DNA from: Ensifer sp. IC4062
GTDB lineage: Bacteria > Pseudomonadota > Alphaproteobacteria > Rhizobiales > Rhizobiaceae
Length of the DNA stretch: 64,000 nt
Direction: 5' to 3'
Assembly (NCBI RefSeq): GCF_020193575.1
Contig: NZ_JADYVD010000013.1
Span: forward strand, 62,001 to 126,000
Below are positions 36,209-61,673 of this stretch, piece by piece. The notes below the pieces were generated by a model, which was not told the origin of the DNA, did not search any database, and worked only from the letters and a program-made list of their open reading frames with translations. Position 1 is the stretch's first letter; the number at the start of each line of letters is the position of its first letter. The position numbers and the translations under genes are program-made.

Positions 36209-37270
36209 CTAAAGCGCCTTCCGTTGTGCGAATAGGGGGACAATTGCGAGGGAGGCGTTTGATCCAGCATCCGCCATAATGGCCAGTATGCGCCGCATCT
36301 CGGCCCGATCGCAGCCTGCATGGTCGGCCAGTGGTTTCGCCAGCGCGGCTGCGCGATCACCGAGATCATCATACTGCCAGAATCTCGGATCGCGCCCATG
36401 CGCCGCGACAAGGCGACGGAGCCACAGGGTATAGATGGAAGAGCGTTCTTCCATCGACATGCGCTCGACCACGCGGAGCGATAGCCACGCCGCTCGACGG
36501 AGATGAAGCGTCGCTTGCTGCCAGCCATCAATCCATTCCAAGAGATCGGAAAGATGCGCCCAACCGGGCGGTATCGGAGTTGACCACGGGCCCACGAAAC
36601 CCGCAGCCTCAACACAATGGTCAAGTGAATCATAATTGGTCTGTCGAGACGGGACAGCTCTCGCCATGATCCATTCCGCCGCAGGCTTCCACGCGGACCA
36701 GAAGCGCGCGTCGGGCTTGCGCTCACTGACCATCAGTTCATGAGCGATAGCCTCCAGATAGTTGCCGATGAGGTCATGCTTGTGGTCCCTGTCCTCGAAC
36801 CGAGTCAGGCTGTTCCAGAGCGTGCCATCACCGTGGAAAGCTGCAAAGCGGCCGACCTCTCGCGCCATCTTGTGCGCCCACTCGTAGGGAAAGTTGCGGC
36901 CATGCTGACGCGAGTCTTCGCGTTCCGCATAATCACGAGTCCAATCGACGAGACCTTTCAAATAAGTTGCGAAAGCATCACGCGCCGCCACCTCGGCTGT
37001 GAGCCGCTGCCAATCGATAAGAGCCAGGATCTCCGCAACTCGTTCCCAGTCGAGTACCACCGGCGAGATGAGCCGAATTCGACGCGGTGGATGATACCAT
37101 TTCCGACCGGGTATCCATTGGAGCCGGTAGGGGGCGGGTGGCAGGTCGGGAACTCGCCCTGCGGGACACGGCCTCGCGGCCTGTTCGATTATTCTTCGCC
37201 GCCTGCGCGCCATACGCCTCGCGGCTTTTTCCTTGCTTCCTTTGAGCCAGAAATGGCCGATATCGGCCAC
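36209..37270 (-). pseudogene. C-terminal part of the giant Mrr-NTPase (shifted frame)
   Basis: This frame continues the large gene to its right. Upstream of its first ATG it is already open and reads ATFAALDVCVADIGHFWLKG, which follows naturally from WNEIRT in the main frame. A single frameshift near 37318 therefore splits one gene. The segment is helix-rich with many tryptophans (WERVAEILALIDWQRLT, GLVDWTRDYAERED) and has no catalytic motif I recognise. The complete protein would be roughly 1,600 residues. Confidence 0.6.
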
Positions 37271-40200
37271 ACAGACATCGAGTGCGGCAAAGGTCGCCCG
37301 TCGCGCAAGGTCCGGATTTCATTCCAAAGAAGTCCAGAAAGCACTGCCTTCTGAACGCCGTGCAGCCGGTCGACGGCAAGTTCGAGGACCCGCCGTTCGA
37401 TGGCGGCATCGCGTCTTCGGCTCGCGTAGGCGGCCAGTCCCCATGCACCGATATCCTGCGCATCGAAGCTCAATAATGCCTGATCAACAGTAATGCTCTC
37501 CTCTGCCGGTGATCGCGAAATTTCGCTGCCGGCTACCAGTCGGTCTCGGACCCAGTCGAGCCGTGCATCCAAGAGCGCGGGATTGGCCCTTGCGGCAACA
37601 ATTGCTGCCACCCCGACAAGGGCAAAAGCCGTCAGCTTACCGGCGAACCCAAACCCGCTGTCGTCGGCGTCGTCAGGCGGGGCGGACGTAATTTGATCCG
37701 CCAGTTCGATCGCCTCTTCAAGAGTCAGACCTTCTTCGATGCCGCCTTTCTCGCGCGAATGGACCACCCACATCGCCAGCCGATTGACCTGTCCCATTCT
37801 ACGTCGGGCCTCCTCGGCGGCTTCGATGATCTCGATCTGCTCGGCGGGAGGGGTGATACGGGCTTTGAGGCGCTGCTCAGTCGCATTGTAGGTGACTTCG
37901 ACCTGATTCCGGTCGCTATCCGAGCGGATGCGCTCCAATCGCTCCTCGTTCGCCGCGATCCAGGAGCGATCGGATAGCTTTCTTTCGTCTTCAGCGAGAT
38001 TCTCTAGGCTCCACGCACTGCGCAGGGCGTCGAACTCGGCTTGCGCTGCTTCACTCGCCTTGAGGCGAAAAGGGAGCATCAGCGCGTGCGATATCGGCAA
38101 CTGCGCCTTGTGACGCTCGAAGATCGCCTCGCACTGATCAAAGTGGTCATCACGCTCTGAGAAACCGAACCCTATGCGGTGCGTCGGCTGCTGGTCGTCG
38201 ATGTGCTTACGGATATCATAGTTCCAAAACCGAGGCGCTCCGAGAAACGGTGCCGCATGATTGATCGCGCCTGGTGTGTTTACATGTGCCTTTAGGAGCG
38301 AAATACAGAGCGCCGCAGACGCCACCAAGCCATGAGGCTGGAGCGCAAGCCTAATGAGTTCGCCGACGTCCCGCCCGTTGGACGCCTGCCGGTGCATCCA
38401 TTCGTCAAGAGCGAGGTACATTGAGCCCAACACATTTGATCCGAGTACGGCGCGAGACCAACGATAGACTGTTTCGTCACCCCAGAGCGGGAGGGAGTGC
38501 CCATCGATTTGAAGCCTCAGTTTGAGGGGTTTTTCCCCGTCATGACAGCGGGCGTATCGCCGCCAGAAGACCGAGGCCCGCCGTTCGATACGATGAAAGA
38601 GATCAAGCGCGAGCGCTTCGTCGGCCTCGAACAACTCGAGGAAGCCCGCGCGTGAAGGTCCGGGCGGGTAGCAACTCCGACTGTCGGGGAGGCCCGCGCT
38701 ATGAGAGTCCTGCCAAGTAAATAGCTCGCGGCCCAGGATCGACTGATGATTACGCGAGCGCCGCCGCGGTGGCAGATAATGAGAAGCACAAAGTCGAGCC
38801 CACGTAGCAGGAAACCTGCTGGGCAGATAGCGAGGGAGCCTCAGCAAATTACCTCGAGGACGTTTGAGATCCCGATCATCAGCCAGACGCGAGAGATAGG
38901 TCTCTACGCTTCGCGCGTCCGACTGGATACTAAAGATCAGAGCCTCGCGAAGCTTCTGCTCGATAAGCTTCCAGGCGTCATGATCCGGCAGATCGATACC
39001 GAAGGGCGCGCGGCGATCTTCCCAGCTGAGAAGGTGCCGGCATTCCTCAATCTCGTCCAGCCAGGGCCGGATGATCCGCACGATAGTCTGGCTGTGAGCA
39101 TTCGGCATGTTGAGGGTGGCGCGGCAGAAGACGCGCGCAACATCGGTAAGTTGGGGCACGAGATCCCGCGGCCAGCCGGACCAATTCGGCAGCGACCAGC
39201 GGAGAAAGGGCACCCAGCTACGCCACACTGGCTGCTTGCTGTAGCTTGCGACCGCGTAGCGTTGGCTCTCGCTGAGATGGGCGAGGTGCGGCGATTGAAG
39301 GAGCGTTTCGTCTAACCGCGTCTCCGAAACGAGAAGGGTGTCAAGAAGGCGCCGAAGAAGCCGGAAGTTATCGGCTTCGAGAGCTGGGCCGAGGTTATCG
39401 AGTATCGACGCGGAGGCTTCGCTGTACAGCGGAGCCACAAGCCATGCCCGGCTCCATGCAGGATCGATCGCGGCGTCGGATTCAAGCGCTGCATGCAATT
39501 CGAGCCAGCGGAGATGATGGCCTTGCTCGAGCAACGATTGCCCGAGCAGCCTCACCGCTCGGAGCCACCACAATGGCTCACCGCTGTCGCGTAAGCGTTC
39601 GCCAAGTCTGCCACAATCGGGCAGCAGACCACGTGCAATAAGCCAGTCTTCGTGCACGTCGAAAGCAAGCGAGAGGGCATCGGCGTGAGCGTCCGAAACC
39701 AATGTGCCTTCGCTGATGAGGCAGCGCGCTCCCTGCGGGTCGAGGGCTGCTCGCCCAGGCGTGCGCGAAGGATGCTCGACGAGCCAGCGCCCCATTTCCG
39801 ACAAGGCCTTGGTCCGACGAGCGGTTAGGTCTACATCAGTTTGTTCGGCATTAGCCCACTTCGCGGCCAAATCCATTTCCGTGACCCGGCCCTCAAGCGG
39901 CACGTCGAGCTTCAGAAGCTCGCGAAGAAGGAAAAGCCGGCGGTTCTGCTGGCCCAGGTCGTTCCGTCGAAGCAAAGGTGCAAAAGCGGGGAACGCTCGC
40001 GCCACGGCCTCGCATTCGTCCTGGTCGATAGCTTCTATAGCGAGGCTTGCCGACCCGCCAATCCCCGCATCCTCAAGTGCGGTGAGAACTAGGTCACGGT
40101 CCTGATACGGGCGAGCGGAGGTGATCATCTTCCACTTGCCAGAGACTAGATGATCCGCCGCGACCGATAGCAGGTCAGTCACAACACCGCGCCGCTCGGA

Positions 40201-41052
40201 CAGCAGGAGACGATCCGCCCCATCCACGAGAATCAGGAGGTTGTCACCGCGTCCGAGACGCTCAAACAACTTGGTTGGCGTTTCGCCGATCCCTAGCTGC
40301 ACGAGATGTTCGGCGAGCGACCCGGCGCGAACCCTATTATCCTTGAGAACGAAAAGCGGACCCAAATGCTCACGCGCGAGTCGCTTCAGGATCGCCGACT
40401 TGCCTCCGCCCCCCTCGCCGGTGAGGCGGAGAATGTTCTGCTTGATGAGGTGGACCGATGCGCGCGCTACAAGATCTGACCGGGGCAGTTGCAGCCTCTC
40501 ACCTCGGTGGTGCAAGCAGTCCTCGACTGATTTCAGGGCGGAATCGGCGGCCTCGGCGACACGCTCCAAATCGACAGCGCGCGCAGCGAGGTCGGGATAA
40601 AATTGACGGATGACCGAGGGATGTTTTGCAATTAGCGCCTTTAGGGCGCCCCAGCCAAGAATATCTGCCTCGAATTTGCCAGCAGCAACGCGCGCCGCGG
40701 AGACGGTCCGGGCATGTTCCTGCAGCTCCACATCGACCTCCGCCGTCGTCGCAAAATACCACCTGCCCAGGGTAGGTGCGAACTTCTCCGCCTTGGCGAG
40801 TTCGCGATCAAACTCGCTCTTGGTTGCCTTTGCCCCAAAGTCCCGATCTTTGCCCTTGCACTGGACGCCGAAATAGCTGCCAGGCTTCCATTCGGGCGAG
40901 CCGTACACATCAACGCCATGTTGAGGCTGGCCTGTCCGGCCGTTCTTTTGAGCGGTAGGGTCCTTCCAAACCTCCGCAAACAAAGCGCAGGTGAGGTCCT
41001 CAAAGGTCTGCCACTTGCTTGGCGCATTGATTTGGGAGTCAAGGATGTCCAA
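37189..41052 (-). CDS. Giant Mrr-nuclease / P-loop NTPase (Avs-like)
   Basis: This 1287-codon gene uses a TTG start at 41052 with GGAGG upstream. Residues 15-105 form an Mrr/PD-(D/E)xK nuclease domain (FEDLTCALFAEVW, GVDVYG with D48, VQCKGK with Q64/K66, RWYFATTAEV). Residues 205-300 carry Walker A GEGGGGKS (212-219) and Walker B LLILVDGADRLL (272-283). The remaining ~900 residues are helical repeats. Nuclease at the N-terminus, STAND-type ATPase and a long sensor-like C-terminus is the layout of Avs antiviral proteins. The gene may instead be an unclassified relative. The true C-terminus lies in another frame (36209-37270). The gene is preceded by an operator-like inverted repeat. Confidence 0.75.
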   Translation of the reverse strand: MDILDSQINAPSKWQTFEDLTCALFAEVWKDPTAQKNGRTGQPQHGVDVYGSPEWKPGSYFGVQCKGKDRDFGAKATKSEFDRELAKAEKFAPTLGRWYFATTAEVDVELQEHARTVSAARVAAGKFEADILGWGALKALIAKHPSVIRQFYPDLAARAVDLERVAEAADSALKSVEDCLHHRGERLQLPRSDLVARASVHLIKQNILRLTGEGGGGKSAILKRLAREHLGPLFVLKDNRVRAGSLAEHLVQLGIGETPTKLFERLGRGDNLLILVDGADRLLLSERRGVVTDLLSVAADHLVSGKWKMITSARPYQDRDLVLTALEDAGIGGSASLAIEAIDQDECEAVARAFPAFAPLLRRNDLGQQNRRLFLLRELLKLDVPLEGRVTEMDLAAKWANAEQTDVDLTARRTKALSEMGRWLVEHPSRTPGRAALDPQGARCLISEGTLVSDAHADALSLAFDVHEDWLIARGLLPDCGRLGERLRDSGEPLWWLRAVRLLGQSLLEQGHHLRWLELHAALESDAAIDPAWSRAWLVAPLYSEASASILDNLGPALEADNFRLLRRLLDTLLVSETRLDETLLQSPHLAHLSESQRYAVASYSKQPVWRSWVPFLRWSLPNWSGWPRDLVPQLTDVARVFCRATLNMPNAHSQTIVRIIRPWLDEIEECRHLLSWEDRRAPFGIDLPDHDAWKLIEQKLREALIFSIQSDARSVETYLSRLADDRDLKRPRGNLLRLPRYLPSRFPATWARLCASHYLPPRRRSRNHQSILGRELFTWQDSHSAGLPDSRSCYPPGPSRAGFLELFEADEALALDLFHRIERRASVFWRRYARCHDGEKPLKLRLQIDGHSLPLWGDETVYRWSRAVLGSNVLGSMYLALDEWMHRQASNGRDVGELIRLALQPHGLVASAALCISLLKAHVNTPGAINHAAPFLGAPRFWNYDIRKHIDDQQPTHRIGFGFSERDDHFDQCEAIFERHKAQLPISHALMLPFRLKASEAAQAEFDALRSAWSLENLAEDERKLSDRSWIAANEERLERIRSDSDRNQVEVTYNATEQRLKARITPPAEQIEIIEAAEEARRRMGQVNRLAMWVVHSREKGGIEEGLTLEEAIELADQITSAPPDDADDSGFGFAGKLTAFALVGVAAIVAARANPALLDARLDWVRDRLVAGSEISRSPAEESITVDQALLSFDAQDIGAWGLAAYASRRRDAAIERRVLELAVDRLHGVQKAVLSGLLWNEIRTLRDGRPLPHSMSVWPISAISGSKEARKKPRGVWRAGGEE

Positions 41053-41700: not shown

Positions 41701-43527
41701 TCAAACTAGCTGAAGCAGTTCTTCGATCACTTCTTTTATCTCAGACTTTTGCTGGCCGTTAACTTGGTACTGAGAACGCAGCATGATCTTTTCGGCTGTC
41801 ATCTGTGGCCAAAACGTATCAATCACATCGTCTGGTTTAACTGAGACTGCTTTTCCGATAATTTTCTTGGCGTCGCAAGTGTCGGTAAAGGCAACCTGTT
41901 TACCGGTAAGCGTCAGAATAAGATCTGGGCAGAGATAATTCTCGATTTCTCTTTTTCGTGTTGAATAGAAGCGCCGTCCCTGTGCCTCGACTTCCTTCTG
42001 CCGCTTCTGGATAGATTTTACTTGTACAGGATCACCGCCGACGTCGGAATCGAGGAACACGCACCAGGGTAAGCCCAGATTATCTGCAAGGTTTAGGGTA
42101 ACCCAATGTTTAACGCTGCCGCATCCGCCAATCAGGATGGGGACGACCCCCGCGTCTTCAAGGTTAGCCGCAATGTGTCCAGCGTCCTTGAGGACATTTG
42201 CCGCATGTTTAAGGAAAGTGACGTCCGACTTGCCTTCAACGAGAACAACACCCTTCGCTCTTTCCATGCCAGTTTCAGGTAGGACGCCGAGGCCCTCGGT
42301 CGCTTCCTTTAGAACGGGTTCGTCTGGTAGTTTGACGGTAGGAACACCAGCCGCGTTCTTGGTCACATACCGGATGCTTTCAACTGGCATCAAACCAGCC
42401 AGAGCCGGGACATGGGTAGTGACGATAATCTGCCGATTATCCTGCCCAGACAGTGCCAACAGAGCTTTCATCAGCATGATCTGGTAGTTGGGATGCTGCG
42501 AAGTTTCAGGCTCTTCGATAGCATAGATCACGTTACGCTGCGTTCCGGTTACGGCTCTCTCTGCTTCTGCTCGGAAAAAGTTCAACAGGATTAAGCGGCG
42601 CACCCCACTACCGCGCTTGTTGATGGGTATGCCGTTTTCTCCGTCCAGAGTGAAACTGAACGTCCACTTCGGCTTTTCCTTGAAACGAGGCACCAATTCG
42701 TTGGCCAAGTCGGGAGCCATCTCCCTGAGTTTGTCAAGCGTACGCCCAGCCACATCAAGCACGCTCTTTTCGATCTCTTGCTCAAGTTGGCTGATCCGGT
42801 CCTGCAGTGCGGCTTGTGCGTCTCTCACCGCTTGTTGCAGCGGATTTTTTGCCTCGACGTCGCCATCGCTGCTTTCTCTGTCGGATTTGAACAATGCGAA
42901 GGTTGGCAATTGGTCCTGTATTTTGCCCCAAATCGACTTGCTATCTGTCGACAATCCTTTATCGACATCCAGGAGCATTTCCTGAAGCGGTATTGCTCCT
43001 GCAGATGCCCTGATCGCCTTTCTCCATAACGAAGATACACGCCTATCACCGACGGCTTCGGCGACACCACGTTCTTCGCCCAGCTTTTTCAAGTCGATCA
43101 TTTTCAGGCTCAGAAGCGTACCTAAGACCTGATCAACCGGATGCTGGCAGCGGATTGAAGTTTTTTCAAGTTTGCCCGTACCTGCCTTGTAGAACTTGGC
43201 GATCTCCAGGTGACCAGAAGCATTGAGGAGATATTCGTCAGCGAGGGTTGTCTCCACGTTCTCATCAAGTACCAGCGTGCTGGGAAGATCATCGAATTCA
43301 CAGGCGATCTCAAACTGCTCAAGGCCATCCGATAAACTAAAGCAGTTCATGTCGGTTTTATCCGATTTGGCACCATCTATTTCAAAGAAGATCGCCAGGG
43401 CTTCGAGGATGGTCGATTTACCGTAGTCATTGCGACCAACAATTCCGGTCATCCCCTCTTCGACAGGAATGGCGACAGTTTCCCGGTAGCCCCGGAAGTG
43501 AGACAGTTTAATGGATTTCAGTCGCAT
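41701..43527 (-). CDS. OLD-family ATPase with TOPRIM nuclease domain
   Basis: OLD nucleases couple an ABC-type ATPase to a TOPRIM nuclease; some protect against phage. From the ATG at 43527 the protein has 608 residues. It has Walker A GRNDYGKSTILEAL, a signature-like GSGVRRLILLNFF, Walker B VIYAIEEPETSQHPN and switch histidine IIVTTHVPAL. The TOPRIM half has the glutamate in VVLVEGKSDVTFL, the aspartates in CVFLDSDVGGDP and a late glutamate in KREIENYL. No UvrD-like GajB partner is next to it, so it is a single-gene OLD rather than Gabija. It is divergent from the carbamoyltransferase gene. Confidence 0.88.
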   Translation of the reverse strand: MRLKSIKLSHFRGYRETVAIPVEEGMTGIVGRNDYGKSTILEALAIFFEIDGAKSDKTDMNCFSLSDGLEQFEIACEFDDLPSTLVLDENVETTLADEYLLNASGHLEIAKFYKAGTGKLEKTSIRCQHPVDQVLGTLLSLKMIDLKKLGEERGVAEAVGDRRVSSLWRKAIRASAGAIPLQEMLLDVDKGLSTDSKSIWGKIQDQLPTFALFKSDRESSDGDVEAKNPLQQAVRDAQAALQDRISQLEQEIEKSVLDVAGRTLDKLREMAPDLANELVPRFKEKPKWTFSFTLDGENGIPINKRGSGVRRLILLNFFRAEAERAVTGTQRNVIYAIEEPETSQHPNYQIMLMKALLALSGQDNRQIIVTTHVPALAGLMPVESIRYVTKNAAGVPTVKLPDEPVLKEATEGLGVLPETGMERAKGVVLVEGKSDVTFLKHAANVLKDAGHIAANLEDAGVVPILIGGCGSVKHWVTLNLADNLGLPWCVFLDSDVGGDPVQVKSIQKRQKEVEAQGRRFYSTRKREIENYLCPDLILTLTGKQVAFTDTCDAKKIIGKAVSVKPDDVIDTFWPQMTAEKIMLRSQYQVNGQQKSEIKEVIEELLQLV

Positions 43528-43667
43528 GTACGGACCCCCCCCAACCGCGAATCGCAAGTGTAGAAATTACAACTTTCACGGTTGATTTTCACTCCTTGTT
43601 TGTATTGTGCTTATCCCTGCGTGGTCGATTCGGCATAGCGGCCGCGGGCATAGTGGGGATTCCGTCC

Positions 43668-48997: not shown

Positions 48998-50130
48998 TCA
49001 CGATGATCGTCTTTCGCGGATCGCTCGGAGTTCGGCGAGGAATGCCGTTGCAATTTCGGTTGCCTCAGACGCATCCGCGGACTCGACATCCAAACCGTGC
49101 GCAGCGCGGTTCATGGTCTGTAGAGCACTCCGGAACCGACCTGCGGTTTGGGGCGCCAAGCCAAGTCGCTGCAGTTCCGTTAGCATTGGTCCAAGAGCCA
49201 GCGGACGCTCGGCTTCGGTCTGATCGGCTACCAACAGTCGGATTTCACGCTCAACCTCTATGCGTAGCTTCACGAGCGCCATCAACGGGAATTCGCGTGC
49301 AAACTCCGCCTCTGTCGGTAGCTCTGTCTGCAATGGCTCGGGGAGGGCGGCAGAGAGCCTATATTCCGCAACGCCCATCGGCTTTGTGGAGTCTCGAAGC
49401 GCGTATTCGACGATCACCTCATTCTTGCCTTTGCACAGAATGATGCCGATGCTCGGGGCGTCCGACTCGTGTCTAAGTTGGGCATCGACCGCGGAAAGAT
49501 AGAAGTTCATCTTGCCAGCGAACTCCGGCTTAAAGTCCTCTATCTTCAGCTCTACGACGACGAAACAGCGCAGCCGCAAATGGTAGAATAGAAGATCCAG
49601 ATAATAGTCCTGCCCACCAACCTCGAGATGATGCTGGCTGCCGACGAATGCGAAGCCTTTACCGAGCTCAAGAATGAGAGAGCGTAGGTGCTCGAGTAGG
49701 CCTTGCTCGAGTTCGCGCTCGGACATTGCCGGACCGAGGGCAAGAAAATCGAAGCTGTAAGGATCTTTGATTAACTCCTGCGCCAGATCGGATTGCGGTG
49801 CAGGCAGTGTCCTGGCGAAATTGGTGAGTGCCTTCCCCTTTCGCTGGTAGAGGCCGCCTTCGATCTGATGTACGAGAACATTGCGACTCCACCCATGTTC
49901 TACCGCTTGGCGAGCATACCAGAGCCGCTCTTCGGAGCTTTTCAACGCCTCGACGAGCTTGACGTTATGGCCCCAGGGCAATTGTGCAACAAGTTGTTGC
50001 ACAATTTGTTCATCCGGAAACGCCTCAGCAAAGGCGCGCATGTATTTGAGGTTCCGCGGATCCTGTCCTTAAGCTCGGCAAGCAGAGAGGCATACCCGTC
50101 GCCGTCAGATGAAGGAATGAGCGTGGTCAT
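48998..50130 (-). pseudogene. YhcG/DUF1016-type PDDEXK nuclease with internal deletion
   Basis: The downstream frame (48998-50041, 347 residues) carries the nuclease half: YYLDLLFYHLRLRCFVVVEL with the ELK/DYYLDL pair, FYLSAVDAQLRHESDAPSIG. The extreme N-terminus survives in another frame at 50130-50055 (MTTLIPSSDGDGYASLLAEL). Between them the expected ~120-residue DUF1016 N-domain is missing. The sequence jumps from LKDRIR to NLKYMRAFAEAFPDEQIVQQ near 50055 with a frame change. Intact relatives are often linked to restriction or toxin functions; this one is dead or, at best, makes a truncated nuclease domain. Confidence 0.75.
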
Positions 50131-50550: not shown

Positions 50551-51717
50551 TCAGGCGGTTTTCATTATCGCACCCTCGATGACGACGCCGGAGCTCACGT
50601 ACTTCCAGAATGCGACCAGCAACTTGCGAGCCAGAGCGACAATCATCGGCTGCTTGAGACGACTGCTGCTGCGTGCGATGCGCTCCTTGAACCAGAACGT
50701 CAGCGCCGAGTTTGGTTGATGCCGCAGCCATAACCAGGCGAGCTCGACCATCGTCGCTCGCAAACGCGGATTTCCCGCCTTCGAGACACCCTGCTCACGG
50801 TTGATGTTGCCGCTTTGCCAGGGCGAAGGAGCAAGCCCTGCGTAGGCAGCGACTTGCCGCCGGTTGTCGAAGTGTCTGAACAGGCCTTCCGTGTGAAGGA
50901 TCGTCGCGAACTCGGGACCAATTCCCCTGATCCTTAGAAGCGCGGCCGCTCTTGCCGGTGTGTCCGCTGTTTCGCGAGACATCAACGCATCTCGTTCTGC
51001 TTCAACAGCCTTGATCTGTGTGAGCAACAATTCAAGGCGATCGAGTTCCCGGCAAATCTCGGCCTTCAGATGCTTCGGCACCATCCGGCCGTCTCCCGTT
51101 CGAAGCTCATCCAGGCGCTGACGGCGATCACGCCGCAAAGGCTCGTAATCTCGTATTCCTTGGGAGAAGAGCAGCCCCTTTATGCGATTGACGTGGAAAA
51201 CACGTTCCGCAATCAGGGTTTTCCGCTCTCGCCCGAGCCGGCGGTTGTCTTCCTCTTCGGGGGTGAGAAGCTTGACCATCGAGCAAGCACGCGGTTCACC
51301 ACGTTTCCAGGCCATCAAGGCCCGTATTAGGGTCTCGCCGTCGATGCGATCCGTCTTTGCGCGGCGATGACGGCGTGGCATGGCTATGGACGCAGCCTCC
51401 ACGATATGGCTTTCGATCCAGGCTTCCTTGCTCAGTACGCGCGCGAGCCAGAACCCGTCCAGCCCGGCCTCCTGGATCACCACCAGTGGAAAAAGCTGAT
51501 CTATACGCCGCTGTGCTTTCTGGCGAAGGGTGGCAAAACACGAGAACAGGCCGGCGATGTCGCCACCAGGCACTGTATGGCGAGACATCTTTTCGCTTCC
51601 CGGCGAGAGAGCGGTCACGAGCCATGTCGATTTGCTCAGTTCCAACGATACGAAAATTGCGCCAAGATCGACGGGGGTAGCGGCATGTGCCTGCGGTTGA
51701 TCAGCTTTCATCGGCAT
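50551..51717 (-). CDS. IS110-family DEDD transposase
   Basis: The 388-residue protein starts at ATG 51717 with GGAGG 6 bases upstream. The N-terminal RuvC-like DEDD domain (FVSLELSKSTWLVTALSPG; AKTDRIDGETLIRALMAWK) is followed by the C-terminal transposase-20 domain with the nucleophilic serine region (YAGLAPSPWQSGNINREQGV). The frame is intact. IS110 elements use a structured RNA from their non-coding end to choose target and donor DNA. Here it lies just beyond the stop of the ClpP-like gene. Confidence 0.93.
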   Translation of the reverse strand: MPMKADQPQAHAATPVDLGAIFVSLELSKSTWLVTALSPGSEKMSRHTVPGGDIAGLFSCFATLRQKAQRRIDQLFPLVVIQEAGLDGFWLARVLSKEAWIESHIVEAASIAMPRRHRRAKTDRIDGETLIRALMAWKRGEPRACSMVKLLTPEEEDNRRLGRERKTLIAERVFHVNRIKGLLFSQGIRDYEPLRRDRRQRLDELRTGDGRMVPKHLKAEICRELDRLELLLTQIKAVEAERDALMSRETADTPARAAALLRIRGIGPEFATILHTEGLFRHFDNRRQVAAYAGLAPSPWQSGNINREQGVSKAGNPRLRATMVELAWLWLRHQPNSALTFWFKERIARSSSRLKQPMIVALARKLLVAFWKYVSSGVVIEGAIMKTA

Positions 51718-53398: not shown

Positions 53399-54097
53399 AT
53401 GCGACGATTTCTTGTTGGTGCGGCCGTAGCTGCAACTTTGGTCCATTGGCTCGGTTCGGTTCGCGACCGTGCCCCGATTGCCGAAACCCCACCGACCTCA
53501 GCAGAAATCGTCGCAGAGAAAGAGCTGCCCCTAGCGGTAGGGAGCGCTGAGATTTCCGTTGTTGCGCCTCAGCAAGACGCATCCCCGGGGGCAGCCGAAA
53601 GCGGCGACCGTGAGCACGTGATTGCGACTGTTTTCGTGCGTGGTAGACGGGTTGCCCTGCGAAAAGGACCGGGCAAGGAGTTTGCCATCCTCGACAGATA
53701 CGATGTGGGTAGGCCGGTCGGTTTGCTGTCCGTCGATGGCGAGTGGTCTCGTATCAAAGACAATCTCACGCGGCGAGAAGGATGGATTGCTTCGCATCTC
53801 CTTAGCTCCGAGACAACGTGGTCGAAGCCAAAACGCGATTCACCCGCATCCGCTGAGCCGTCTAGTGAACAGCCAGTCACGATCCCGCGGATTTCCGACG
53901 CCGTGATTGTACAGCGCATCATCGCTGAGTCTATTTCCAGCTACAGCGGTTCGTGCCCATGCCCGGAAAGTCGCGACCGGTCCGGACGGCGCTGCGGGCG
54001 TAGGAGCGCGTATTCGAAACCGGGCGGTGCTGCCCCAATTTGCTATCCGGGCGATGTCTCAAGGGCCATGATCGATGCATTTCGCTCGCGATTGTGA
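53399..54097 (+). CDS. Exported SH3-domain protein with Cys-rich tail
   Basis: From ATG 53399 (GGGGCGGGG upstream) the protein has 232 residues. A hydrophobic N-terminus (FLVGAAVAATLVHWLG) acts as a signal or anchor, and a bacterial SH3 domain follows (VFVRGRRVALRKGPGKEFAI, then LLSVDGEWSRIKD). The conserved C-terminus (SSYSGSCPCPESRDRSGRRC and PICYPGDVSRAMIDAF) has four cysteines. SH3b domains often bind peptidoglycan. It lies immediately before the RT leader in the same direction. Confidence 0.75.
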   Translation: MRRFLVGAAVAATLVHWLGSVRDRAPIAETPPTSAEIVAEKELPLAVGSAEISVVAPQQDASPGAAESGDREHVIATVFVRGRRVALRKGPGKEFAILDRYDVGRPVGLLSVDGEWSRIKDNLTRREGWIASHLLSSETTWSKPKRDSPASAEPSSEQPVTIPRISDAVIVQRIIAESISSYSGSCPCPESRDRSGRRCGRRSAYSKPGGAAPICYPGDVSRAMIDAFRSRL

Positions 54098-54208
54098 CGC
54101 GCGATCAGCTGCCTGCAGGCGTTAGCTGGCTCGTAGCGAGTGTGTCGTCGAAAACTTATCCGGGTCCAAGCTCTGACACCGGCCGCCTGTAGCAAGTATA
54201 GTACTAAT

Positions 54209-54493
54209 CTCGGGAAAACGCGCTTGCCCCCTTGAATAGCTAGGGTTGCATTTCGTAACGTACTCTCGCGACTCAGCAATGGGACGCTATCTGGTCACGA
54301 GGGTCTCACAGACCGGGGGGACTGGAGCAGCTGTTGAAGCTGTCAAGGCTTATGAAGGTATTCAATGCGAGTTCCATTGCGCTCTCCTTTGATATCGGAC
54401 GATGCCAGCAGAATGCGCATAGCATCCTGATGACAGTATAGACGATTACGTCGATGAAGTGCCTTATCTACTAAGCGGTGCGGGGCAAGGGAT
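54209..54493 (+). ncRNA. Candidate ncRNA leader of the reverse transcriptase
   Basis: The 396-base gap before the RT gene has a promoter-like CTGACA-N18-TATAGT (54173-54178 and 54197-54202), predicting a start near 54209 and a leader of about 285 nt. Several hairpins are visible: GGTCT-CAC-AGACC (54302-54314), CAGCT-GTTGA-AGCTG (54328-54342) and CAATG...CATTG (54363-54379). DRT2-type defence RTs have a structured ncRNA of roughly this length in this place. One frame is stop-free from 54259 to 54438. All this is positional and structural inference. Confidence 0.4.
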
Positions 54494-55963
54494 TTGACCA
54501 TAAGGGCACATGGCAACCTTGCCCCCTCTCGCTCCCGCGGCCGGGCTGGCGAGTGGCCTTTCAAGCCTAAGAGCTACCCGCACTTCGATGCATTCCTCTC
54601 GGAGGATGACGCAAGATCGTTGGCAGCAGACCCCACCAGAGTGGCCTCGCACGCATTCTTTCCCTTCCTGCGCTACCATCAGCGCTGGACGAAATTCACC
54701 GACAAAGGAGAGAAGGGGGATGTAAAAGAGCGTCCCATCAGGTTCGCTTCTCGCGCCGACTCGTACATATTCAGTTACTATCGGCACCTGCTATCTCAAC
54801 CTTTTGAGAAGGAACTCAAGGCGCGTGGCCTCCACCGTAGCGTTTTGGCTTATCGAAGAGTCATTGGCGCGGACGGCAGAGGCCAGTGCAACATTCATTT
54901 TGCCCTCGAAGCGATTTCCGCGATTCGCGCCCTCGGAAACTGTTGTGCGATAGCCTTGGACATTAGCAGCTTCTTCGAGAGCCTGGACCACGGGCGCCTG
55001 AAGGAAATATGGTGCGGTCTCTTGGGCACGGATCGCCTTCCTGCTGATCATTACAAGGTCTTTCAGGCGATCACCGCGTATTCCGTCGTTGACCGCGAGG
55101 AGCTCTTTGAGCGGCTTGGTTACATCGGTCCCAAATACATGTCGAAAACGGGCGAGCCGATAAAAGGGTACCTGGTAGAGAAGTCGCTCATTCCGCGCCG
55201 ACTTTGTACGGGCCAGGAATTCCGGGAAAAGATTGCCGGTGGCGATGGTCAGAAGTCTCTGATTAAGAAGCACCGGAAGCCCTACGGTATCCCGCAAGGC
55301 TCGCCAATCTCAGATCTGCTTGCGAATTTCTACCTTCTTGATTTCGACACTGCCGTAAAGGCGAAGGTTGATGGGATGGGAGGGCGTTACTTCCGTTATT
55401 CAGACGACATTTTGATCGTGGCTCCCATAGATCGCGTGGCAGCGATCGAACTTGAGGGGTGGGTAAGATCCCAGATAGTTCTCCACGGCCCGAAGCTGCG
55501 CATCAAAGCCGAGAAATCCGCCATCTTCTGCTATGAGGGGAGCGGTGGAGATCAAAGCTGGTCCAGGATAATGGGGGAGCAAGGAAAGAATGGGCTGGAG
55601 TATCTTGGATTCCGCTACGACGGCCGCAACATGTTCCTTCGCGATAGTACGCTGAGTGGACTCCAGCGGAAGGCCGCCGCCAGCGCTAAACGGGTCGCTC
55701 TGCGACTGCTGAAGCGATACCCTGAAAAGTCCACGGACCAGATAATCGCGGAGTTCAACGTCAGCGCCTTTCTTCAGCGTTATGGCCGCGTCCAGGACTT
55801 CGAGAGCAAGGCGGATGATGTTCGGAACTGGACTTTCTGGACCTACGCGACGAGGGCCGCAAAGCTCACGGCGCCCTTAGGGCTGCCAATTTACCGGCAA
55901 CTTAGAAACTATCGACGGAACATGCGAGCTCATCTAAAGCGGGCCTTGGAAAAAGGACGCTAA
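54494..55963 (+). CDS. Reverse transcriptase, DRT2 (UG2)-like
   Basis: The 489-residue RT has motif A in IALDISSFFESLDH (D156), motif B in YGIPQGSPISDLLANFYLLD (264-283) and the catalytic RYSDDILIV (YSDD 302-305). There is no maturase, endonuclease or integrase domain, so it is not a group II intron. The start FKPKSYPHFDAFLSEDDA, KERPIRFASRADSYIFSYY and the C-terminal GKNGLEYLGFRYDGRN, RDSTLSG and NWTFWTYATRA blocks agree with my memory of the antiviral DRT2 family. That assignment needs a profile search. The TTG start has AAGGG close upstream. No second protein follows it, fitting a single-gene system with an RNA. Confidence 0.8.
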   Translation: MTIRAHGNLAPSRSRGRAGEWPFKPKSYPHFDAFLSEDDARSLAADPTRVASHAFFPFLRYHQRWTKFTDKGEKGDVKERPIRFASRADSYIFSYYRHLLSQPFEKELKARGLHRSVLAYRRVIGADGRGQCNIHFALEAISAIRALGNCCAIALDISSFFESLDHGRLKEIWCGLLGTDRLPADHYKVFQAITAYSVVDREELFERLGYIGPKYMSKTGEPIKGYLVEKSLIPRRLCTGQEFREKIAGGDGQKSLIKKHRKPYGIPQGSPISDLLANFYLLDFDTAVKAKVDGMGGRYFRYSDDILIVAPIDRVAAIELEGWVRSQIVLHGPKLRIKAEKSAIFCYEGSGGDQSWSRIMGEQGKNGLEYLGFRYDGRNMFLRDSTLSGLQRKAAASAKRVALRLLKRYPEKSTDQIIAEFNVSAFLQRYGRVQDFESKADDVRNWTFWTYATRAAKLTAPLGLPIYRQLRNYRRNMRAHLKRALEKGR

Positions 55964-56231
55964 ATGTGCGCAAAGTTGGTAACCTCGAGGTGAGTCTTTT
56001 GCCCGTATGCTGAGCTACCCGAAACAATCAACTGGCTGTTCGCCCTAAGAACGGAACCTCTGCGAGCAAGCCGAACGTTCTCGTTCTGTGCTCAGAAGAT
56101 CGCATAATGTATCAAGGGGAGTAAGACTTGGTCTACAGCGTCGCAGGTCAGGAGTTTTGAGACGTGCACGGTTTCGGTAAGGCCGTTCGCCTCCATATCT
56201 AAAAGCAAGATATCGTGATCAGTTCGCTGGG
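55964..56231. other. Non-coding gap after the RT gene
   Basis: No gene is seen. It contains the right copy of the 39-bp direct repeat and presumably the left end of the IS66-type remnant. Confidence 0.4.
56077..56115 (+). repeat. 39-bp direct repeat, right copy
   Basis: It shows 35 of 39 matches to 48855-48893, with one block of three differences and one single difference. It lies 114 bases after the RT stop and shortly before the IS66 remnants. It may be a recombination site, or the shared end of related insertions. Confidence 0.75.
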
Positions 56232-56639
56232 ATGGTCCGTGCGATTGTCGCTTGCGTTGGTCTCTGGCTTCGTCGCCACGGCGCTGGGCGGTATGCTGAT
56301 TGGGTCGAGGTGATTACGTCGGTCGAGCGGCGTCGGCGCTGGGCTCGGGAGGAGAAGGAGCGGCTCGTCGCGGCGACGCTTGAGCCAGGCGCAGGCGTTT
56401 CGGAGATCGCGCACTCGGCGGGAATCCATGTGAGTCAGCTCTTCCGCTGGCGCAAGGAGCTCTGCCAAACCTCCGCGCCTTCCGTCCCGCAGCTCGTTCC
56501 GGTGGAGGTCGTCGAAGCGCTGCCAGCACCGGCGATCCCGCCCGAGCCGCCGCCGGTCTCTCGGCCCCGCAAGAAAGCAAGCATGGCGATGATCGAGCCA
56601 CGTATCTTCAAGGCCGCTGAACGCGCATTCTCTGCATGA
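56232..56639 (+). CDS. IS66-family TnpA (OrfA) protein
   Basis: The 135-residue protein contains the IS66 TnpA helix-turn-helix block (VEVITSVERRRRWAREEKER then PGAGVSEIAHSAGIHVSQLF and RWRKEL) and a proline-rich tail. TnpA is an accessory DNA-binding protein of IS66. The stop overlaps the next ATG (ATGA), as usual for IS66 operons, but the expected TnpB does not follow. The true start may be the VEVITSVE region rather than 56232. Confidence 0.8.
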   Translation: MVRAIVACVGLWLRRHGAGRYADWVEVITSVERRRRWAREEKERLVAATLEPGAGVSEIAHSAGIHVSQLFRWRKELCQTSAPSVPQLVPVEVVEALPAPAIPPEPPPVSRPRKKASMAMIEPRIFKAAERAFSA

Positions 56640-60092: not shown

Positions 60093-61673
60093 TTATCGGA
60101 CAGCCACCGAATACGTGACTGACCGCCTCTTCGCTCGCGTCTTTGCTTTTTGTTTGGGTTGTTGGGCGGGGGTAGGCTCGACCGTTGCGTTGACCGCCTC
60201 TGCGATAAACTGCGCTCCAGAAAAAGACACATCGAGTGCCATCTCGGGATCGCCGGCATTCCCGCGCACCTCGATGGTTACGCCTGTCCAGCGGTTGTCC
60301 GGCAGGTTGAGCGGCGGACGCGTCGCCCGCCCAAGGGTTCGATTGACCGCCCCGTGATCGTTCGCGAAGGGATAAAGGTCGGTAGCGTCTCCGCGATTGC
60401 CGCCGCCAAACATCTTGGCGAGGTCGCGCTGATTGTCGGCCTGAATCAGTTCGATCGCGAGATGTTGCTCTTCGTTTACGTTGGCGATCGATTCGTCGAC
60501 AACGTAGACAGCTATTCCCTCATCCGGCAGGAATGCATCCTGACGTCTGCGGCGGCGATACTCCACGACGATATATTGGTCTTCCGTCATCATGGCGGGA
60601 TTGTGGATGACTACAACCGCGCCTCCCTCCGCCGCCGGTTTCAGCTGGATGCCGGCCTGGTCCGCCTGCACGACGACAGGATCGATCCAGCCATGAAACA
60701 TGCGGAGCATGCCGTTCGGATAGGTGGGCGTGAGGCCCCCATCGCCCCAGGACCCTGATGCCATCAGGCAATAATCTCCGAGTCCGTTGGACCGGAAATT
60801 GCTTGATCTACCGGTGTCGTAGTAGTCCGCCCAACGCGCCGCCAGATGCCCCCATTCGTGAGCGCAAACGCCTACCCGGCAGTCCTCCGGCACTGTCAGA
60901 TAGGTCGTCGCCTTGAGATCAGGCCCAACTGCGATACCGTCATCCGGAATGACCCATTTATGGCTCCATATGTCGCTGCGATCGCCGCTATTCTCGGCGC
61001 CGCCACCGGCATGAATGATGAAAAGTGCGGTTACGCTGTTTTCATCAAAAACATCGTAGCCGGAGAAATCGACACCTGAATCCTTCGCCGCCTGAACGGC
61101 ATCGCGCGCCATCCCCTGCGCGTTGCGGGGAAACGTGCCATCCATGCCCGAGCTATCGTCGGCATAAAAGGCCAGAGGGTGTGGAAGGCGAAACCATCCG
61201 TGGACGGTGCCCGTTACATCGATGCCACGGCCGTTATCGTCCCACCCGCTAATCTGGCGGAAATAGTCGCGCATGCTGCCGGTCGGGAAACTCGATACGC
61301 TAAAGAGCATGTGCTCGAAAAAGCTTGGGCTCCGGTCAGCTGCGTGGCTTCGGTCGGGGAAGTCGACGAGCAATACGAGGGTCCGGACCTCGCCCCTGAG
61401 CTGTCGAGGCGGCCGGTCGATCAGGGATGCGTTTGGGTTTGCAGGGCCTGTCGTTGTCGCGCCGTCATCGAGCCCAATGTAACGACTACCTCGCCGGCTC
61501 GATCGCCACACGCTGTAGTATTGCTCAAACGTCATCTCGACAGGCAGACGATGGTCCGACTTAAGAGCGAGGTATCTGGCTCGAAGTTGTGCCAAGAGGC
61601 CAGGCGATGGGGGAACCTGACACATGCATGCCCTGCAGCCGGTTCGTGACCACGACTTGAGTGAGTAGCGCAT
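60093..61673 (-). CDS. M6-family zinc metalloprotease
   Basis: The 526-residue protein (ATG 61673, GGAG 9 bases upstream) matches the M6/immune-inhibitor-A-like metalloproteases. [14 protein letters not shown] starts the catalytic domain, [11 protein letters not shown] comes next, and the zinc site is [18 protein letters not shown] beta-rich C-terminal domain and a lysine/arginine-rich tail follow. No classical signal peptide is seen at the N-terminus, so export may use another route or the start may be upstream. It lies 86 bases before the Cys-rich precursor gene. Confidence 0.85.

Follow-up and report, generated by a model that had tools for sequence, protein, structure and literature searches.

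A DRT2 (UG2) reverse transcriptase in Ensifer sp. IC4062 with an overlapping covarying RNA and a predicted Neo gene

The window analysed here is the whole 64,000-nucleotide (nt) stretch of Ensifer sp. IC4062 (contig NZ_JADYVD010000013.1, positions 62,001 to 126,000), and its positions 54290-55963 are read as a DRT2 (UG2) cassette of two parts with a likely role against phages, in which a reverse transcriptase (RT) gene is accompanied by an overlapping non-coding RNA (ncRNA) that would hold a 117-nt template for a predicted stop-less Neo protein. We put the probability of this reading at roughly 0.88. The identity and fold of the RT and a conserved, covarying RNA (5' hairpin, 3' hairpin and pseudoknot) are established as far as sequence comparison can establish them. 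In KpnDRT2, neo is reported to lie antisense to the ncRNA as a repeat flanked on each side by an ACA word; where two repeats meet, a -35 and a -10 hexamer are united with a 17-bp spacer (PMC12039810, PMC11100668).

The reverse transcriptase and its overlapping RNA

All 489 codons of the RT frame are intact, with FRYSDD as the active-site string, and RVT_1 is the sole Pfam match, in agreement with the earlier note, made from the letters alone, which had described a 489-residue YSDD protein with no further domain. RVT_1 is a general RT domain and would also suit an RT of a different class behind an unrelated leader, be it a group II maturase, AbiA/K, DRT3, DRT9 or a retron, but these classes are refuted by profile and fold, and we regard this explanation as barely credible. 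Both the top profile match and the top fold match of the protein are DRT2, the identity that the note had proposed, and the RT falls within the UG2 branch.

The upstream open reading frame ends at 54097 and 396 bases separate it from the RT start at 54494, the non-coding space reported before. This region was compared among relatives, nine of which come from named genomes: Ensifer sp. IC3342 (L002, 99.8-100%), Sinorhizobium saheli (L003, 96%), L004 (79%) and others at 54-42%. A 17-locus alignment of the upstream regions contains fixed blocks. Since L004 is homologous from near 54230 up to the stop codon of the RT, the shared unit is ncRNA plus RT; in L003 the upstream flank is also conserved, plus about 100 nt downstream. 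Identity to L004 is 95% over 54494-54533, against about 75% in nearby RT coding sequence and 50% over 54534-54553, and about 37 nt of the annotated RT frame likely still belong to the RNA of the window. Its 5' end is uncertain (about 54232 to 54290) and its 3' end lies at about 54530, within the RT frame, so that the exact limits of 54209-54493 suggested earlier are not supported.

The evidence for an RNA is comparative, the predicted single-sequence fold of the window RNA being unremarkable (z = -1.08). The 3' hairpin, whose arms are GGGGCAAGG (54482-54490) and CCTTGCCCC (54517-54525), straddles the TTG start of the RT; in A1, an alignment of 12 loci, this helix (helix 3) is paired in 93.1% of cells, with changes on both sides in 10 of 11 pairs. 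The post-template structure of A1, with the 3' hairpin and the pseudoknot strand in its loop, is paired in 82.0% of cells and holds 56 cells with both-side changes against 20.5 after shuffling, while sliding by one column lowers pairing to 47-49%. Because MAFFT had set the pseudoknot strand partly out of register (A1, A2), an alignment-free swap test was used on 20 loci, L018, L052 and L053 also being left out, and the observed sum was reached in 1 of 20000 permutations. The pseudoknot shows both-side changes in 5/5 pairs of A1, an alignment that does not include the branch of the window. For the 5' handle hairpin, 94.8% of cells are paired in A3 (11 loci), with both-side changes in 4/7 pairs; its swap test gave 66/20000 with narrow segments that were chosen after the hairpin had been seen, and 2708/20000, which is not significant, with wider ones. 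The region is conserved among relatives and its helices covary, so that, with DRT2 as the top profile, neither of the two outcomes that the earlier note had named as refuting its reading (a best profile of another RT class, or an upstream region that relatives do not keep) occurred. The window carries the structured upstream ncRNA with a pseudoknot that is expected of DRT2. A search of Rfam over 53900-56300, at E up to 1, returned no family. The 12 loci of A1 have an extra hairpin after the pseudoknot strand, missing by eye in the window, L003, L004, L005 and L038.

A promoter for this RNA had been proposed at CTGACA (54173-54178)-N18-TATAGT (54197-54202). The pair is present, but it was rejected as a conserved promoter: L003 has TCTAGT at the place of the -10 hexamer and L004 no match there. 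The alternative TTGAAT at 54232 is followed by no good -10 hexamer at 17 bp in the window; in L009, L044 and L046, TTGAAC and, after a further 17 bp, an AT-rich hexamer stand directly before the handle.

Upstream of a conserved W, the TTG at 54494 is the only in-frame RT start, and it sits in the loop of the 3' hairpin. Together with the low model confidence of residues 1-16 in the predicted structure, this could point to a decayed DRT2 copy, in which the RT would lack a proper start and be translated from a weak TTG or not at all. Decay is nevertheless quite improbable in our view, for the 489 codons are intact, L003 and L004 retain the identical TTG, the template frame and the RNA, and the same arrangement recurs elsewhere, which would be unexpected under decay. 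Start codons were counted in 24 loci (23 non-redundant loci plus L003, L002 standing in for the window): an in-frame start lies downstream of the last hairpin in 16, and in the other 8 (L002, L003, L004, L010, L012, L041, L049 and L051) the nearest in-frame start is in the hairpin loop. For L010, L012, L041, L049 and L051, which belong to several separate branches, in-frame starts before the conserved motif of the RT are found only in or at the last ncRNA hairpin. An RT start confined to this loop suggests, from the sequence arrangement, a single transcript that would serve either as ncRNA template or as RT messenger.

The template unit and the predicted Neo gene

Between the handle and the pseudoknot, the complements of two promoter halves and a repeated word delimit the putative template. 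GTTGA begins 8 nt before TGTCAA and GTCGA begins 9 nt after AGTATA, so that joined repeats would read TTGACA-N17-TATACT (8 + 9 = 17) on the opposite strand, a DRT2-type junction promoter. The antisense product has a sole open frame (frame 0) across the repeat junctions: VIVYTVIRMLCAFCWHRPISKESAMELALNTFISLDSFN. At 117 nt the unit has the commonest repeat length of the published set (PMC12039810). The stop-less protein encoded by concatemers, which the earlier note had taken from the known system, is recovered by this rule here and in three canonical DRT2 loci, L062 (117 nt), L063 (117 nt) and L054 (111 nt), in which the words are ACA at both ends (L062, L063) or ACA and ATA (L054), the first of them starting six bases before the -35 complement.

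Each of the 24 units has a length divisible by 3 and is free of stops in the common frame (23/23 without the near-copy L003), whereas dinucleotide shuffles keep the Neo frame open in 4-34% of cases per locus. The anchors were read from the alignment before lengths were computed for 22 loci, 2 more being added later. Near-copies (L001, L003, L011, L013, L035, L036, L039, L040, L043 and L045) were dropped before counting, and L016, L017, L058, L042, L050, L055, L057, L056 (whose record ends) and L015 and L034 (partial RT) stand outside the 23; L016, L017 and L058 fit the template rule as well. As 13 unit pairs are more than 65% identical, some loci are related and the product of the shuffle probabilities is not to be taken at face value. 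A ribosome site followed by a start codon occurs in the Neo frame of 21/23 loci, where 2.5 would be expected and the two remaining frames have 2 and 1, and with ATG in 16 loci against 1.1; it is, among the features of the sequence, the strongest coding sign for Neo. The hydrophobicity of the Neo frame exceeds the mean of its own shuffles in 23/23 loci. The spacing from the 3' word to the 3' hairpin is not kept to multiples of 3. A sense-strand reading was rejected, the unit of the window, represented by L002, having no open sense frame.

The two copies of the word agree between the 5' and 3' ends in 22, 23, 9, 12 and 17 of the 23 loci at its five positions, against 2-7 at neighbouring positions. 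In L009, L044 and L046 both copies of the word have C where G stands in the 5' words of the other loci; the three form one branch, and the C-type word, judged from its distribution, probably arose once. L004 is the exception in the first base (GTT against ATC). Since the template of the window is flanked by GTT and GTC and not by ACA-1 and ACA-2, the system is placed in DRT2 but outside the KpnDRT2-like (ACA) subgroup: on sequence grounds it is a DRT2 variant with a predicted Neo gene.

In the mechanism we propose, the RT would start 5' of GTCGA (54450) and copy to GTTGA (54333); the cDNA end TCAAC-3' could then re-anneal to GTCGA with 4/5 pairs, and copying would restart. The 117-nt template would thus be copied head-to-tail into a repetitive cDNA, which would encode, on the strand opposite the ncRNA, a stop-less and likely growth-arresting Neo. 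By analogy with KpnDRT2, phage infection would trigger the formation of double-stranded repeats, followed by transcription from the junction promoter, translation of Neo and dormancy. The restart signal likely differs from that of the DRT2 examples studied in the laboratory.

Several observations weigh against the reading as a DRT2 cassette encoding Neo. The NCBIfam Drt2 score of the RT, 351.8, is below the cut-off of 390, and the ribosome-site spacing of its TTG start is poor. The anchors were set by eye, in L049, L014, L016, L017 and L058 with the rule already in hand, and part of the 17-bp spacing follows from the construction. Moving the unit 20-80 nt downstream, where it still largely overlaps the template, leaves an open antisense frame in 19-21/23 loci. 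Moreover, L057 (Nitratidesulfovibrio) fails the rule with 145 nt, not divisible by 3; L042 has only 66 nt and weak anchors; no anchors were found in L055; and L050 has in place of the ncRNA what we take, by eye, to be transposase-like sequence, its DRT2-like RT being probably a truncated copy. Finally, the closest unit pairs have no third-codon-position excess (6,6,5; 6,1,2; 6,3,5; 13,11,9; 15,12,13), so that protein-level selection is invisible by that test. Over wider shifts, any open antisense frame is found in 8-14/23 loci at 40-180 nt upstream and in 13-21/23 downstream, with a peak where the shifted unit overlaps the template; as shifted units are often open, the open frame alone leaves the template boundaries unfixed. 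Upstream of position 1477 in L057, promoter-half motifs and an ACTG repeat are seen, and its 145-nt unit could reflect either wrong anchors or another jump mechanism.

The lack of third-position excess would also suit a DRT2 RT and ncRNA whose product acts as cDNA or RNA, with no Neo protein in this clade, and Tang et al. suggested alternative mechanisms in divergent clades where Neo annotation was challenging (PMC11100668). This explanation is unlikely, although somewhat less so than decay, given that the ribosome site with its start codon, the length divisible by 3 with a shared open frame and the hydropathy excess all speak for a protein. The features of the preferred reading, a cassette encoding Neo, are collected in Table 1.

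Table 1. Coordinates of the DRT2 cassette and its elements, as positions of the window
Feature	Position	Strand	Basis or remark
Template region, one Neo repeat on the minus strand	54333..54449	+	inferred, 117 nt
5' jump word GTTGA, counterpart of ACA-1	54333..54337	+	5'/3' word comparison
3' jump word GTCGA, counterpart of ACA-2	54450..54454	+	5'/3' word comparison
-35 hexamer TTGACA, junction promoter	54341..54346	-	complement TGTCAA on plus strand
-10 hexamer TATACT, junction promoter	54435..54440	-	complement AGTATA on plus strand
AAGGAG, likely ribosome binding site in Neo frame	54384..54389	-	motif and start in frame
ATG, likely first Neo start codon	54375..54377	-	in Neo frame after AAGGAG
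ncRNA	54267..54530	+	inferred extent; conservation with L003/L004, covarying helices, 17-locus alignment
TTGAAT, alternative ncRNA -35	54232..54237	+	conserved in L003 and L004; weak inference
5' handle hairpin	54290..54326	+	54290-54296 pairs with 54320-54326; A3 covariation
Pseudoknot strand 1, GTGCCTT	54459..54465	+	swap test, A1 covariation
Pseudoknot strand 2, AGGGCAC	54503..54509	+	within 3' hairpin loop; swap test, A1, conservation
3' terminal hairpin	54482..54525	+	54482-54490 / 54517-54525; loop holds RT TTG start
DRT2 (UG2) reverse transcriptase	54494..55963	+	489 codons from TTG, YSDD active site

Comparison with known DRT systems

The window resembles KpnDRT2 and E. coli drt2 (Tang et al. 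PMC11100668; Wilkinson et al. PMC12039810; 9c0i) in its RT fold and single RT gene, in an upstream ncRNA with a 5' hairpin and a template, and in a pseudoknot that ties the post-template stretch to the last hairpin's loop. In the KpnDRT2 structure G155-C159 pairs with G250-C254 (PMC12596737), and in the E. coli loci GCGGT follows ACA-2 while the last loop carries ACCGC, a topology common to KpnDRT2 and to the relatives studied here. The canonical loci L062, L063 and L054 further share with the window an antisense unit divisible by 3, one open frame and a 17-bp junction promoter.

The differences concern the word, the scaffold and the RT. The word of the window group is GU(YGA) or CU(YGA), 8 nt before the -35 complement, whereas the ACA of the KpnDRT2 type is 6 nt before it. 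Between the 3' word and the end of the last hairpin the window has 76 nt (core stem) or 83 nt (extended stem, as measured for the controls), whereas L062 has 132 nt, L063 129 nt and L054 107 nt. With 16 nt between pseudoknot strand 1 (54465) and the hairpin core (54482), it has no room, unlike KpnDRT2, for hairpins between the pseudoknot strand and the last hairpin, and hence lacks the tower/buttress of the KpnDRT2-like subgroup, of which KpnDRT2 requires the buttress (PMC12039810). The RT is longer (489 against 425 aa in 9c0i), which may compensate for the hairpins missing from the scaffold, and its start lies inside the ncRNA, unlike in KpnDRT2 and E. coli drt2.

DRT9 and DRT10 also combine an RT with an ncRNA and make repetitive cDNA, but this is reported to be homopolymer or tandem-repeat DNA with protein priming (PMC12483538, PMC12632851), and the Drt9 profile and fold scores of the window RT are much lower than those of DRT2.

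Alphaproteobacterial relatives (L004-L010, L012, L014, L033, L037, L038, L041, L044, L046-L049 and L051) have in common with the window the template rule and the GU/CU word, in those counted; the relatives examined for structure also have the handle, the pseudoknot and the 3' hairpin. When 25 RTs are placed in a tree, a branch with support of 97/91 sets the GU-type rows on one side, L055 being unlabelled. We tentatively consider that the Alphaproteobacteria could hold a distinct DRT2 subtype, with a jump word re-coded to two bases (GU or CU), a pared scaffold and a larger RT; in the window and several other branches the RT start in the pseudoknotted loop would make the transcript either template or messenger and the RT self-limiting by binding; this remains the doubtful part of our proposal.

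Distribution, genomic surroundings and significance

Counting the genome of the window, matches were found in 12/394 genomes of the family and 5/385 of the class at E up to 1e-30, while in the order 23/297 matched at the looser limit of E up to 0.001, often weakly. The 12 family matches include no genome from the 7 others that are listed under the same genus. Further relatives lie on plasmid records of Azospirillum and Paracoccus. A nucleotide search of plasmids found no record covering 80% of the cassette; the matches listed are short, at 2-6% of the query, and among them H6 (Sinorhizobium fredii) falls within the RT gene. Phage records gave three distant matches with 28-31% identity.

The cassette has an IS110-family transposase (50551-51717, minus strand) on one side and an HTH_Tnp_1 transposase piece (56232-56639, plus strand), presumably IS66-like, on the other. 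A few kb away, at 48998-50041 (minus), is a DUF1016/YhcG-type nuclease, which belongs to PDC-S02, a candidate defence family of PADLOC. Two further minus-strand genes perhaps mark a defence-rich stretch: 41701-43557 encodes an AAA/OLD-like protein that matches the AriA and GajA profiles, and 37189-41052 a long protein that matches Avs4 in part (47 bits). An M6-family (immune inhibitor A type) peptidase domain is encoded at 60093-61673 (minus).

DRT2 gene synthesis as described rests on ACA-flanked templates of KpnDRT2 relatives (PMC12039810, PMC11100668), and Tang et al. detected ncRNAs in divergent DRT2 clades, where Neo was harder to annotate (PMC11100668). In the drt2/neo literature as listed, supplementary trees lying outside this scope, no treatment of the present clade was found. 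A simple rule (promoter halves joined at 17 bp, a repeated word, a length divisible by 3 and an in-frame ribosome site) predicts Neo down to about 30% RT identity, and adds a set of predicted hidden genes of a kind that standard gene callers would overlook. As the word differs from one group to another but remains matched at its two places, the template-jumping model becomes testable with natural variants.
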